Source: Halostella limicola (lineage in GTDB: Archaea; Halobacteriota; Halobacteria; Halobacteriales; Natronoarchaeaceae). From it: a DNA stretch of 64,000 nt. Below the pieces are notes generated by a model. The model had not been told where the DNA came from, made no database searches, and saw only the letters and a program-made list of their open reading frames with translations. The position numbers were made by a program, and so were the translations under genes. How positions within the stretch are numbered: the first letter of the stretch is position 1; each line of letters begins with the position of its first letter. Where the stretch lies: contig NZ_RCDI01000003.1 in the NCBI RefSeq assembly GCF_003675875.1, positions 372,001 to 436,000 on the forward strand, given 5' to 3'. Below are positions 9,339-14,859 of this stretch, piece by piece.

Positions 9339-10097
9339 ATGAGCGCACCGCTCGACCACGTGATGATGCGCGTCGAGGACATGGAGGAATCGCTGGAGTG
9401 GTACCAGTCCCACTTCGACTACGAGGAGAAGGGCCGCTGGGAGGCCGACACCTTCACCAACGTCTTCCTCGGCCCCGAGGACAAACACGACGAGGGGGCG
9501 CTGCTCGAACTCACCTACAACCACGACGGTCGTTCCTACGACATGGGCGACGCGTGGGGCCACATCGCCGTCCGCGTCGAGGACGTGTACGAGGCGTACG
9601 ACGAACTGATGGACCAGGGCGTCGAGGACTACCGCGACCCCGACTCCTGCGGCGGGCAGTACGCCTTCGTCACGGACCCGGACGGCCACGAGATCGAGAT
9701 CGTCGAGCGCGACCACGGCGCGCGGTGGAGTCTCGACCACACGATGATCCGCGTCGAGGACGTGGAGCGTTCCATCGGCTGGTTCGCGCGCGTGCTCGAC
9801 TACGAGATGTTCCGCCGGAGCGAGCACGACACCTTCGCGCTTTACTTCATGAAACCCCGCGACGCCGCCGACGAGCAGATGTCCGTCGAACTCACCTTCA
9901 ACTACGACGGCAGCACGTACGAACTGGGCGACGCGTGGGGGCACGTCGCCGTCGAGGTCGACGACCTGCAGGGCTTCTGGGACACTGCGATGGAGCGCGG
10001 CGCGGAGGACTACCGCGACCCCGAGTCGTGCGACAACATGTACGCCTTCACGGAAGATCCCGACGGGCACGAGGTCGAGATAGTTACCGAAGACTGA
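9339..10097 (+). CDS. Double VOC-domain protein (glyoxalase I/dioxygenase superfamily)
   Basis: 252 residues made of two tandem vicinal-oxygen-chelate units. The first (about 1-125) starts PLDHVMMRVEDMEESLEWY and ends DPDGHEIEIVE; the second (about 130-252) starts SLDHTMIRVEDVERSIGWF and ends DPDGHEVEIVTE. Each has the His at the first strand and the Glu near the end that normally bind a divalent metal. Lactoylglutathione-lyase annotation is common for such proteins, but haloarchaea use other thiols (for example gamma-glutamylcysteine), so the true substrate is uncertain. ATG 9339 is chosen because the first VOC strand begins five residues in. Confidence 0.87.
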   Translation: MSAPLDHVMMRVEDMEESLEWYQSHFDYEEKGRWEADTFTNVFLGPEDKHDEGALLELTYNHDGRSYDMGDAWGHIAVRVEDVYEAYDELMDQGVEDYRDPDSCGGQYAFVTDPDGHEIEIVERDHGARWSLDHTMIRVEDVERSIGWFARVLDYEMFRRSEHDTFALYFMKPRDAADEQMSVELTFNYDGSTYELGDAWGHVAVEVDDLQGFWDTAMERGAEDYRDPESCDNMYAFTEDPDGHEVEIVTED

Positions 10098-10243: not shown

Positions 10244-10347
10244 CTCTCCTCCGTCCGGCCCCGACGACTGATTTCGCAAATATCGGGCGTTAGTGGCTGT
10301 CTCCGGCTTTGTGAAGGATTACCACACACATCAACCACCACAAAGCA

Positions 10348-10354
10348 TTTATAA
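10348..10354 (+). promoter_or_regulatory. Proximal candidate TATA box for the S-layer gene
   Basis: TTTATAA after CAAAGCA, a good archaeal BRE/TATA combination. The predicted transcription start is near 10377-10379, giving a leader of about 110 nt. A leader of similar length has been reported for S-layer glycoprotein mRNA in other haloarchaea. Confidence 0.55.
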
Positions 10355-10388
10355 CGACGGGACATCGGTTTCTACCGTACCCCTACCC

Positions 10389-10490
10389 ATGGTGACAGTA
10401 GCGATTATCGATGGCCGCATCCCGTTCACGGATGCTTTCGCGTCAGAGAAAGCTGCTGTTGCCGGTGCAACACGACAACAACAAACATGA
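10389..10490 (+). CDS. Possible 33-residue leader peptide overlapping the S-layer start
   Basis: An ATG at 10389, about 11 nt after the predicted transcription start, opens a 33-codon frame (begins MVTVAIIDGRIPF, ends ATRQQQT). Its TGA (10488-10490) overlaps the S-layer ATG (10487-10489) in an ATGA junction. There is no Shine-Dalgarno before the S-layer start; the preceding bases are CA-rich. This fits translational coupling. Against it, third-codon-position G+C is weak in the second half, so it may be a chance frame in an untranslated leader. Confidence 0.4.
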   Translation: MVTVAIIDGRIPFTDAFASEKAAVAGATRQQQT

Positions 10491-12880
10491 CAAGCAACAC
10501 AGAGAAGTTCCGTGGCCTGTTCCTTGCAGCGCTTATGGTCTTCTCCGTATTCGCAGGCTCTGTCGCATTCGCTGGTTCCGCCGCCGCGGCGAACCAGGTG
10601 GATGCCGACGAGAACCTGAATAACGGAGAGACGTACTGGCAAGGTCAGGTCCTCTACGAGGACGGATTCAATACAGCGAACGGTGGAGAAGACTATCAGA
10701 TTCGTGACGAGGACGGCAACCTCGTCCGTGAACGTACTGCCGACTCCGACGGCTCCGCGCTGATCAGCACGTCGGGTCTCGAAGGCGACTACACGCTCAC
10801 CACGTCGAGCAGCGGCTCGAACAAGAGCGTCGACTTCGAGGTCGCAGTGCAGGACTTCAACGTCACCGCTGACGACGGCGAGGTCAACATCGCCGGTGAC
10901 AACACCAACGAGACGTTCAACATCGATTCGAACCGTGGCTCCTTCACGGTGAACGTCTCCGAGGCTGACGGTGACATCGACGCAAGCGAACTCGAGACCG
11001 CTTTCGCGGGCGAGGGCGCAACTGCGGTCGGTGACAACGTCCAGATTCAGGTTTCCGGTGGCACCACCATCGAGGGCAACTTCAGCCAGATCAGCGCTGG
11101 CGAGTACACCCTCGACGTCGAGGTCAACGACACCGACGCTGCAGACACCGTCGACCTGAACCTCACCCGGGACACGGGCGAGGCTGAGTTCACTCAGTCC
11201 GTCGTTACCGAGAACGTCGGTGACGTCGCCGAGGTTACTGTCGAACTCTCGAACAGTGACCAGGGCGCTATCACCATCGGTGACTTCGAGAGCGACGGCT
11301 ACCAGGCCAACGCGACTGTCACTGACGGCGACGGTGACGGCGAAGTTACCGTCCGGTTCAACACGTACACGGCTGGTAACACGTCGGGCAACCTCAACTC
11401 GTTCGTCGTTGAGGCAGCCGACAGCGACGACGACGTGACGCTTCAGAACCAGTCCGCACTGAGCGCCAACGCGCTCCTCGCGAACACCACGTACGACATG
11501 TCCGTCCGCTCCGGCACTGACGTCAGCACTGACGCCAGTGACGTGGCGACGCTGAACCTGCGCAGCCGCTCGACCGACGAGCTTACCATCGGCACCGCGC
11601 CCGGTAGCGAGGACTTCAGCGAAGCATCCGACGTCGTTAGCGCCATCTCGGACGACAACTCCGTCGCCGAGGGCGACTACATCGTCCACGAGCTCGATGC
11701 CAGCGGTCTCGCCGGCATCGCCGCGGAGAACGATGGCCTCTTCAACGCCATCGCCAACAACGGTAACATCACGCTGACGGTCGAGCAGGACCGCCAGCGT
11801 CCGAACCGTCCCCAGAAGGAACTGACGCTCGGTAGTCAGAACACGACGATCTACAGCGACACCGCGAACGACTCGTACTACATCGTCGTCGACTCGGAAC
11901 AGCTGAACAACATCGACGTTGACGACGGCAGCTACACGACGACGCTGACCGTTGGTGAGGAGACCGTCCTCGCCAGCAGCGACGAGGAAGTGAGCGACTC
12001 CTTCAACCTCGTCGAGCCGACGGCGACCGTCCAGCCGCCTGAGGTCGAGGCCAACGCTGGCCAGACCATCCAGGGTCAGAGCTCGCTCGCCGCTGGCTCC
12101 CAGGTCACCATCCGTGTCCAGAGCCAGTCCAGCGCCAACCCGTTCCTCCTGGAGCAGCGCGCAACGGTCCAGGACGGCGGCTCCTTCAGCGCTGACTTCG
12201 ACTTCAGCGAGGCCGAGGAAGGCACGAACTTCACCGTCGACGTCCGTGAGAGCGGCTCGTCGCTCCTCGACGAGGCCCAGGCCGGCACCGTCGGTGAGGC
12301 TCAGCCCGCTCAGATCTCCTACTCTGGCGGCATCAGCGACGACGGTACTGTCGTGACGGTTGACGAGGTCTTCCTGCCGAACGGCGGCTTCGTCACGGTC
12401 CACGACGAGACCCTCGTCTCCGAGGACGACGCCTTCGGTAGCGTCCTGGGCACCTCCGAGTACCTCGAGGCCGGCCAGCACAGCGACGTGCAGGTCGAGC
12501 TCGACGGTGCTCTCAACGAGTCCCAGACGCTGATCCCGATGGCCCACCAGGACACCAACGACAACCAGGAGTACGACTTCGTCGACTCCGAGGGTGAGGA
12601 AGACGTCCCGTACACGGACGAGAACGACGAAGCAGTTCTCGACTCCGCGGACGTCGAAGTTGGTGACTCCGGTGAGGACAACGAGACGACCACCGAGGAC
12701 ACCACCACCGAGACGACCACCGAGGAGACCACCACCGAAGAGACCACCACCACCGAAGCCACCGACGGCGACGGTGACGGTGACTCCGACAACGACGGCG
12801 GTCAGCCCGGCTTCGGCATCAGCGTCGCCATCGTGGCGCTCATCGCTGCTGCCCTGCTGGCCCTGCGCCGTCAGGACTAA
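10487..12880 (+). CDS. csg: S-layer glycoprotein with PGF-CTERM anchor
   Basis: Major cell-wall subunit, 797 residues. A signal peptide (about 1-34, cleaved after SAAAA) leads to NQVDADENLNNGETYW, typical of mature haloarchaeal S-layer proteins. The long Asp/Glu/Ser/Thr-rich ectodomain has at least fifteen Asn-X-Ser/Thr sequons for N-glycosylation. A Thr/Glu-rich stalk (about 735-760, expected O-glycosylation) is followed by QPGFG and a single hydrophobic helix ending in basic residues, the PGF-CTERM signal processed by an archaeosortase with lipid attachment. Codons include more T-ending choices than neighbours, as in a very highly expressed gene. Single gene with its own promoter and terminator. 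Confidence 0.96.
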   Translation: MTSNTEKFRGLFLAALMVFSVFAGSVAFAGSAAAANQVDADENLNNGETYWQGQVLYEDGFNTANGGEDYQIRDEDGNLVRERTADSDGSALISTSGLEGDYTLTTSSSGSNKSVDFEVAVQDFNVTADDGEVNIAGDNTNETFNIDSNRGSFTVNVSEADGDIDASELETAFAGEGATAVGDNVQIQVSGGTTIEGNFSQISAGEYTLDVEVNDTDAADTVDLNLTRDTGEAEFTQSVVTENVGDVAEVTVELSNSDQGAITIGDFESDGYQANATVTDGDGDGEVTVRFNTYTAGNTSGNLNSFVVEAADSDDDVTLQNQSALSANALLANTTYDMSVRSGTDVSTDASDVATLNLRSRSTDELTIGTAPGSEDFSEASDVVSAISDDNSVAEGDYIVHELDASGLAGIAAENDGLFNAIANNGNITLTVEQDRQRPNRPQKELTLGSQNTTIYSDTANDSYYIVVDSEQLNNIDVDDGSYTTTLTVGEETVLASSDEEVSDSFNLVEPTATVQPPEVEANAGQTIQGQSSLAAGSQVTIRVQSQSSANPFLLEQRATVQDGGSFSADFDFSEAEEGTNFTVDVRESGSSLLDEAQAGTVGEAQPAQISYSGGISDDGTVVTVDEVFLPNGGFVTVHDETLVSEDDAFGSVLGTSEYLEAGQHSDVQVELDGALNESQTLIPMAHQDTNDNQEYDFVDSEGEEDVPYTDENDEAVLDSADVEVGDSGEDNETTTEDTTTETTTEETTTEETTTTEATDGDGDGDSDNDGGQPGFGISVAIVALIAAALLALRRQD

Positions 12881-12986: not shown

Positions 12987-13790
12987 TCAGTCGAGCAGTT
13001 CCGCCGGCGCGTCCGCGAGGTCGGCGAGCGCGTCGCGTTCCACGTGATGGAGATCGCCCGGAACGACGAGGAGGTGTAGCGGACCGCCGAACGATCCGTC
13101 TGCGAGCGCGTCCAGCCGGTCCGCCGCGACGGTCGGGTCCGGACTCCCGGCCCGCGCGACGACGACGCCGAGCGCGTCGGGGTACTCCTCCGCGAGATAC
13201 CCGGCGGCCGTGTCGGCGGTCATGTACTCCTCTAATTCCTCGTCGCCGGCGCGGGCGATCGCGGCCGCGTTGTCGACCTTGATGTCGAGGTAGACGAGGG
13301 TGTGCAGGCCGCGCTCGCGGTTCGCGTCGATCGTCTCGGTGACGCTCGCAGGGAGGCCGTCGGCCCCGTGGGCGTACGCGAACGGCAGCGTCGTCGCCTT
13401 GCCGAATCGGTAGTTCTGAAGCCCTGTGAGCGCGCTCGCGGCGGCCTGGGCGGTCGTACCGTGGACGACTCTGGTCTCGATGCCGCGGTCGTGCGCGCGC
13501 AGGCGGAGGTCGACGTGGGTCGTCGAGATCATCGTGTCGCCGGCGGTGAGGAACGCGACGTCCGCCGATTCGGCGGCGTCGAGGATCTCGGCGGGGTCCT
13601 GCTCGACGCCGGCGCGCTCCCGAACATCGATAGGCGTGTCGTGATACTCTTCGAGCTCCTCGACGGTGGTGGCGACCAGCGTGCTGGTGTAGAACTCCGC
13701 GAACGCGCGGTCGGCCGCGCGGAGGGCGTCCCGTCCCTCCACGGTGATCGACCGCTCGTCGTAGAGGCCGAGTCCGATGAACGTGAGCAT
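12987..13790 (-). CDS. dph5: Diphthine synthase
   Basis: S-adenosylmethionine-dependent methyltransferase that methylates the modified histidine of elongation factor 2 during diphthamide synthesis. 267 residues, normal length. The tetrapyrrole-methylase fold signatures are visible: MLTFIGLGLYDERSIT at the N-terminus, FLTAGDTMISTTHVDL near residue 80, GTTAQAAASALTGLQNYRFG near 112, and the C-terminal LLVVPGDLHHVERDAL. Convergent with the S-layer gene and divergent from trm5, another translation-related methyltransferase. Confidence 0.95.
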   Translation of the reverse strand: MLTFIGLGLYDERSITVEGRDALRAADRAFAEFYTSTLVATTVEELEEYHDTPIDVRERAGVEQDPAEILDAAESADVAFLTAGDTMISTTHVDLRLRAHDRGIETRVVHGTTAQAAASALTGLQNYRFGKATTLPFAYAHGADGLPASVTETIDANRERGLHTLVYLDIKVDNAAAIARAGDEELEEYMTADTAAGYLAEEYPDALGVVVARAGSPDPTVAADRLDALADGSFGGPLHLLVVPGDLHHVERDALADLADAPAELLD

Positions 13791-13878: not shown

Positions 13879-14859
13879 ATGGAAGCGCCGTGCGTGCGCG
13901 TCCCGCGGGAGGACGGCGAGGCGACCCGCCGCGCCCTCGCGGACGACGACCTCGTCGCCGAGGACTTGGAGATCGAGTTCGAGGAAGGCCACCTCTACAT
14001 CCCCGTCACCGACGCGGCGGCGGTGCCGGACGAGTACGACGTGGTCGTCCGCGACGTCGCCGAGCGCGACGTGCAGGTGATGCCGACCGAACTGCTCGGT
14101 TTCGACCCGAGCTACGAGCGTCTGGGCGACATCGTCATCGTCGACGAGGACGACCCGGCGCGCGCGCGGGCCGTCGCCGACGCCGTCGTCGAGTCTGACA
14201 TCCCGGTGAAGACGGTCGTCAACCGCGCGTCGAAGATCGAGGGCGAGCTCCGCATCCGGGACTGGGACGTCCTCGCGGGCGAGGAGACCGAGACCGTCCA
14301 CCGCGAGTACGGCTGCGAGTACGCCCTCGACATCGCGGAGATGTACTTCTCCCCGCGACTCGCCACGGAGCGCCACCGCGTCACCGAGCAGGTCGAGGCC
14401 GGCGAGCGCGTGTTCGACATGTTCGCCGGCGTCGGCCCGTTCGTCGTTCCGGCGGCGAAGCGCGGCGCGGAGGTCGTCGGCGTCGACCTGAACGAGCGCG
14501 CCGTCGAGTACCTCCGGGAGAACGCCGAGCGAAACGGCGTCGCCGACCGCGTGACGGCGATCGCGGGAGACGTCAGAGACGTAGCACCGGACTACGAGAA
14601 CTGGGCCGACCGCGTCGTGATGAACCTCCCGCACAGCGCCGACGAGTTCCTCGACGCGGCCGTCGCCGTCGCCGGCGACGACTGCGTGCTCCACTACTAC
14701 GACATCCAGCACGAGGACGACCCGTACGGTCCCGGCGAGCGGGCCATCCGTGACGCCGCCGCCCCCGAGTACGAGGTGACAGTCGAGACGGGACGCACCG
14801 TCCGGTCGTACGCGCCCCACGAGGTGAACGTCTGTCTCGACGTGCGACTGTCTCGCTAA
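13879..14859 (+). CDS. trm5: tRNA (guanine(37)-N1)-methyltransferase Trm5
   Basis: Makes m1G37 next to the anticodon of tRNAs that read CNN codons, protecting the reading frame. 326 residues: an N-terminal D1-like part, a D2 docking domain (about 75-170, VMPTELLGFDPSYERLGDI), then the catalytic Rossmann domain with SAM motif FDMFAGVGPFVVPAAK near residue 178, acidic DLNERA near 205 and the Trm5-type NLPHSADEFLD motif near 250. Start ATG 13879. It lies immediately upstream of the tRNA-Thr gene. Assignment is firm; some archaeal homologues also act in wyosine synthesis. Confidence 0.92.
   Translation: MEAPCVRVPREDGEATRRALADDDLVAEDLEIEFEEGHLYIPVTDAAAVPDEYDVVVRDVAERDVQVMPTELLGFDPSYERLGDIVIVDEDDPARARAVADAVVESDIPVKTVVNRASKIEGELRIRDWDVLAGEETETVHREYGCEYALDIAEMYFSPRLATERHRVTEQVEAGERVFDMFAGVGPFVVPAAKRGAEVVGVDLNERAVEYLRENAERNGVADRVTAIAGDVRDVAPDYENWADRVVMNLPHSADEFLDAAVAVAGDDCVLHYYDIQHEDDPYGPGERAIRDAAAPEYEVTVETGRTVRSYAPHEVNVCLDVRLSR

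Follow-up and report, generated by a model that had tools for sequence, protein, structure and literature searches.

Haloarchaeal S-layer mRNAs share a conserved, folded leader RNA in which a short upstream reading frame probably hands ribosomes to csg in most lineages

In haloarchaea the S-layer glycoprotein is typically the main protein of the cell surface, and its mRNA raises a question: known initiation routes give no explanation for the heavy translation of a leadered S-layer mRNA that has no Shine-Dalgarno (SD) sequence. We analyzed the S-layer glycoprotein gene csg of Halostella limicola, which lies in a window of 64,000 nucleotides (contig NZ_RCDI01000003.1, positions 372,001 to 436,000), and used as comparison set 171 unique csg leaders, 140 with and 31 without an upstream AUG. 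A preliminary description of the window had reported that csg lacks an SD sequence and that a 33-codon ORF in its leader overlaps the csg start in the sequence ATGA. Both statements hold: an SD-like motif is absent from the last 20 nt of all 171 leaders including the one in the window, and the ORF extends from the ATG at 10389 to the TGA at 10488-10490 with the csg ATG at 10487. Every coordinate was right. The coordinates of all features are collected in Table 1. The neighbors of csg code for a two-domain glyoxalase-fold protein (9354-10097), a diphthine synthase-like protein of the tetrapyrrole methylase family (12987-13790, minus strand) and a TRM5/TYW2-type tRNA methyltransferase (13879-14859).

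Table 1. Features of the csg leader region in the window.
Feature	Position	Strand	Evidence or remark
BRE/TATA promoter of csg (CCACAAAGCATTTATAA region)	10337..10354	+	sequence; column conservation; fixed leader spacing in 171 relatives
Whole conserved leader RNA element	10377..10486	+	covariance model R1; fold z-score -2.52
Near-invariant 5'-terminal stretch GUACCCCUACCCAU	10377..10390	+	predicted unpaired in most relatives; opens at the predicted start G10377
Upstream ORF	10389..10490	+	33 codons including ATG; TGA overlaps the csg ATG
P1 stem, 5' strand (GGTGACAGTAGC)	10391..10402	+	folding, covariation
Internal loop, 5' side	10403..10407	+	GATTA in the window; GAGTA in most relatives
Distal hairpin	10408..10447	+	sequence and length vary among relatives
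Internal loop, 3' side, GAAA	10448..10451	+	together with AGUA similar to the sarcin-ricin (G-bulged) motif AGUA/GAA
P1 stem, 3' strand (GCTGCTGTTGCC)	10452..10463	+	folding, covariation
A/C-rich tail 5' of the csg start	10464..10486	+	mostly unstructured; SD motif absent
ATGA junction of upstream ORF stop and csg start	10487..10490	+	sequence
S-layer glycoprotein gene csg	10487..12880	+	797 aa; DUF7827, DUF7282, PGF-CTERM

From the proximal TATA box (TTTATAA, 10348-10354) an mRNA start near 10377 had been proposed, and the comparison of the 171 leaders agrees with this. As a rule, 27-29 nt separate the first base of the TATA box from the predicted transcript start, a pyrimidine is located at position -1 in 151 of the 171 leaders, and the first base of the leader is G or, in some leaders, A. 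Due to the TATA spacing and the pyrimidine at -1, the first base of GTACCCC is the likely transcript start, which makes G10377 a well-supported prediction for csg.

The 33 sense codons of the upstream ORF, beginning with the ATG at 10389-10391, read MVTVAIIDGRIPFTDAFASEKAAVAGATRQQQT. The overlap of its stop with the csg start lies within the distance of about 10 nt or less that characterizes termination-reinitiation pairs. Shuffling of the window leader alone left the upstream frame open in 26% of the cases and gave a chance expectation of about 9% for the ATGA junction. Because a junction in a single sequence is weak evidence at this chance level, the case depends on the relatives. The preliminary description had mentioned weak third-position G+C as a reason for caution; over the second half of the ORF this value is indeed only 0.24.

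The leader of csg in the window is 110 nt long, and the covariance model R1 matches at 10377-10489 with 81.5 bits (E 4.7e-17). Nearly all of 77 leaders, each folded singly, showed the same architecture, consisting of the unpaired 5' stretch, the stem P1, an internal loop GAGUA/GAAA, a variable hairpin and an unpaired A-rich tail. The conserved 5'-terminal core across the order Halobacteriales is GUACCCCUACCC, and the consensus strands of P1 across the relatives are GGUGACAGUAGC and GCUGCUGUUGCC. In the window the two strands of P1 form a perfect 12-bp helix if G-U pairs are counted, and the first base of this helix (10391) is the G of the upstream ATG. Within the internal loop AGUA is conserved to 95-97% and GAAA to about 86-93% in the leader alignments. 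The pair AGUA/GAA is the consensus of the sarcin-ricin (G-bulged) motif, and by this resemblance the internal loop may be likened to it; AGUA and GAA are present together in 141 of the 171 leaders, and the window carries AUUA. As a peculiarity of the window, the 5' GUACC is able to pair with GGUGC 3' of P1 (10377-10468), which would lengthen the stem so that it covers the 5' end; this extension is not predicted in most relatives.

The stem P1 was returned unprompted by RNAalifold from a sequence alignment of 22 leaders, and the pair counts of these leaders, which were not fitted to the covariance model, agree. Two further alignments had been fitted to the model, which biases them towards its structure; in these, cells with changes on both sides of the pair numbered 145 versus 64 in shuffles (A2, 101 leaders) and 205 versus 80 in shuffles (A3, 103 leaders). 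None of 500 shuffles reached the score in either alignment, and slid controls scored much lower in both than the real P1 pairing. The secondary structure is thus backed by compensatory changes, as expected of a structured leader RNA, and most of the sequence conservation of the leader is explained by RNA structure rather than by codons.

Using strict filters, R1 matched 191 of the 392 genomes of the order and 52 of 95 genera, and weak matches were confirmed under laxer filters. A DNA search of the order matched 225 of the 392 genomes, many of these matches spanning only the promoter and the first 30 nt of the leader. A search of 84,980 species genomes with the core pattern revealed 52 loci in haloarchaea; those listed are each located 5' of an ORF with an S-layer signal peptide, and in the loci examined the position directly 5' of an S-layer-type ORF was consistent. 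No leader element was found outside the order Halobacteriales in a phylum-wide sample search, the core pattern had no match in viral contigs, and an Rfam search gave no family match, only two chance matches below the gathering score (E up to 10), neither of them on the leader. The comparison therefore identifies the leader as a conserved structured and probably cis-acting RNA of haloarchaeal S-layer mRNAs that is distributed order-wide and is new to Rfam. Several genomes have more than one csg-type gene, either two or three at intervals of about 2.5-4 kb, each with a leader copy (for example L084, L104 and L113; G232:C1:1269453 and 1273386; G264:C1:343336, 346654 and 350152).

For the 5'-terminal part a different function has to be considered, since GUACCCCUACCC could be a DNA element, an initiator or a downstream promoter site, instead of RNA. 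Its first base is the predicted start, at a constant distance from the TATA box and with a YR step at -1/+1, and it is predicted to be unpaired. However, a DNA element would account for the first 12 nt only, P1 covaries as RNA, and outside csg the exact 12-mer is present in the genome only twice, neither time in a sequence like a csg leader. We regard the DNA element as possible but rather doubtful; it would be compatible with ribosome coupling in the rest of the leader. The two other GTACCCCTACCC sites in the genome (L118 and L119) were rejected, as they show no resemblance to the csg leader.

If the upstream ORF encoded a leader peptide with a function of its own, such as ribosome stalling, its sequence should be maintained, and synonymous changes had indeed been named as the signature to look for. 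The 31 close pairs compared contained 182 non-synonymous codon changes against 59 synonymous ones, and the substitutions were equally distributed over the three codon positions (99/102/108). The peptide is recognizably similar inside Halostella (MVTVASIDGRTPFTGAFASEKAAVAGA), but across the order it is unrelated past the first residues, which are themselves dictated by the RNA, and Pfam gives no match. As codon-position bias and synonymous bias are both absent, we rejected the functional peptide, which is most improbable.

In 140 of the 171 leaders the predicted transcript start and the upstream AUG are 11-14 nt apart. Within a range of -16 to +20 of the csg AUG, picked after the distribution was known, frame 0 ends in 125 of these 140 leaders and frames 1 and 2 in 47 and 29; in the 31 leaders without AUG the corresponding numbers for frames 0, 1 and 2 are 14, 7 and 12. 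The published efficient range of -8 to +10 contains the end of frame 0 in 80 of 140 leaders, versus 30 and 23 for the control frames. After clustering at <80% identity the counts were 53/65 for frame 0 versus 20 and 12 (53/65 versus 32/130, p=2e-14), and at <70% identity about 14/18 versus 5 and 4-5 (14/18 versus 10/36, p=0.001); in these and the following Fisher tests kinship is handled by clustering alone. Counted per genus label, some labels being duplicated between naming systems, frame 0 gave 52/58 versus 17 and 10. The distance from the stop to csg has its mode at -4 nt, and the ATGA junction was found under 32 genus labels. Frames 1 and 2 are stop-poor as well, so that the openness of the frame alone is weak evidence.

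The phase between upstream AUG and csg was also analyzed. A 1-nt frame shift at the junction is frequent among close relatives, and length differences modulo 3 gave no signal in simple pair counts. Since Haloarcula-like leaders have their stop 5' of the length-variable tail, the position of termination and the compensation between leader parts were tested instead. A simple phase count was not significant after clustering at <70% identity, and for this reason a tree-aware three-state model was used. The ATGA-compatible phase reached an ML equilibrium frequency of 0.64 (p=2e-4) in this model, whereas the two component distances of the leader (p = 0.64 and 0.41) and the leaders without AUG (p = 0.44) were unbiased in phase. 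A phase-only simulation gave P = 0.034. The two leader parts compensate each other so that the frame is restored (83 versus 46.8+-8.2 in simulations with independently evolving parts), and none of 4000 simulations reached this value. The phase bias arises through compensating length changes of the leader parts. In L221, L222 and L228 the AUG is displaced to +13/+14, and the end of the frame is still at -3/+4.

Such constraints could also arise if use of the AUG were neutral or harmful and selection only prevented the upstream frame from entering csg, where it would cause an N-terminal extension or a deep overlap. The frame extends more than 20 nt into csg in only 3 of the 140 AUG leaders, versus 67 and 62 for the other frames, and several lineages terminate at -11 to -13 and not at ATGA, as avoidance of interference would have it. 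A short frame that stops early would serve this purpose equally well, yet early stops are modestly rarer in frame 0 (9/65 versus 36/130, p=0.03). In addition, ATGA junctions are enriched in frame 0 (28/65 versus 13/130, p=4e-7), and the AUG is kept in 82% of the leaders although one mutation would remove it. We therefore consider avoidance alone quite improbable. Taken together, the frame tests say that ribosomes would use the upstream AUG and favor, less firmly, coupling over mere avoidance of interference.

The preliminary description had named relatives with the same promoter but a broken upstream frame or ATGA junction as evidence against coupling, and such relatives exist. The upstream AUG is lacking in 31 leaders of the comparison set, in Haloferax, in most Halorubrum and in several others, and in some relatives the ATGA is broken. 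The 5' element is kept without AUG in Haloferax, most Halorubrum and Haloplanus-like loci, clades that were assigned via protein similarity and genus group. Here csg is presumably expressed without upstream AUG; coupling is therefore not universal and cannot account in general for the high expression of the S-layer. The Haloferax leaders (L249-L251) are about 79 nt long and retain TACCCCTGCCC; where the upstream ATG would stand they read ATC, and CGCTAGTA can pair with TACTGGCG to form a stem that differs in sequence. In the Halobacteriaceae-like leaders L225, L237, L238 and L247, CCCACTGGTG replaces CCCATGGTG, and this one-base insertion removes the AUG and keeps P1. Haloferax, the usual model, can probably not decide the question of the upstream ORF because it lacks the AUG; csg is unmentioned in the main text of the Haloferax TSS paper and of one ribosome-profiling paper.

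These lineages lend weight to another explanation, in which the leader acts only as structured RNA, either on mRNA stability or by letting ribosomes load at the A-rich tail. Initiation at csg would then be direct, and the AUG would be incidental to the conserved CCCAUGG and P1 sequence. The strong covariation, the survival of the element in clades without any AUG and the missing coding signature of the upstream frame are in line with it. The same is true for the U of the AUG, which is conserved no more than the U of another P1 U-G pair or other wobble positions and is a point against AUG use. However, structure alone does not predict that frame 0 ends beside csg only in leaders with AUG, nor the phase bias and the frame-restoring compensation, and we judge it unlikely as a full account.

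We consider it probable that in most lineages the structured leader carries a peptide-independent upstream ORF which hands ribosomes to csg by termination-reinitiation. The passage of ribosomes proposed earlier is thus retained where frame 0 ends near csg and the ATGA phase is favored, in most but not all lineages. The structure of the RNA, its distribution and the constraint on frame and termination are computed. According to this model the 5' GUACCCCUACCC is followed by the long P1, which closes the sarcin-ricin-like loop and the variable hairpin, and then by an A-rich zone without structure where ribosomes would land. Halostella belongs to the majority of lineages, in which ribosomes would start at an AUG located about 12 nt inside the transcript, read about 20-45 codons across the folded leader, terminate at the csg AUG or within about 15 nt of it, most often as ATGA, and reinitiate at csg without SD. 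The sequence of the upstream peptide would be irrelevant to coupling. We infer that reinitiation raises the output of csg and that the RNA stabilizes the mRNA or presents it.

As the upstream AUG contributes its G to P1 as the first base of the stem, P1 might hinder initiation there, and its folding could decide on ribosome loading. The leader could then be a switch that tunes S-layer synthesis: folding of P1 would determine whether ribosomes load on the upstream ORF and reinitiate at csg, or whether csg is initiated directly or at a reduced level. A protein or a ribosomal component that binds the sarcin-ricin-like loop or else the 5' GUACCCCUACCC would perhaps stabilize P1. We think such a switch rather speculative and improbable. 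An order-wide leader with peptide-independent delivery of ribosomes would offer a concrete and testable answer to the question of S-layer translation. The related genera that kept the RNA and lost the upstream start provide a natural experiment, and in haloarchaeal vectors the leader could serve as an expression part.

Long leaders on the S-layer mRNAs of Halobacterium and Haloferax are known from early work; they belong to the same gene, have a similar length and lack an SD sequence like the leader analyzed here. A conserved structure, an order-wide spread or a coupled upstream ORF of the S-layer leader is not described in the accessible literature. In bacteria, the S-layer mRNA of Lactobacillus slpA has a structured 5' leader. 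Both leaders are long, form stem-loops and are part of a very abundant mRNA for a surface protein, and they may act alike via stabilization of the mRNA, but Lactobacillus belongs to another domain of life and no relation in sequence or structure is expected.

In a study on synthetic nonsense leader ORFs (PMC13255528), a short ORF with an irrelevant peptide located directly 5' boosts the translation of the next ORF. The upstream ORF of csg is likewise short, directly upstream and irrelevant in its peptide; the leader ORFs of that study are synthetic and bacterial and need a strong internal ribosome-binding site, which is absent from the csg leader. Termination-reinitiation is known from gene pairs of haloarchaea. 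Overlapping gene pairs of Haloferax volcanii are strictly coupled and an SD sequence is not essential (Huber et al. 2019, PMC6728339), and haloarchaeal coupling is nearly abolished at a distance of about 20 nt (Huber et al. 2023, PMC10666635). These pairs consist of two normal protein genes, whereas in csg a short frame for a non-conserved peptide lies in the structured leader of a single gene. They share with csg the ATGA overlap or a very short gap, the independence from a strong SD sequence and the haloarchaeal hosts, and the distances in the csg leaders, with their mode at the ATGA overlap, are mostly inside the range that is efficient in these studies.
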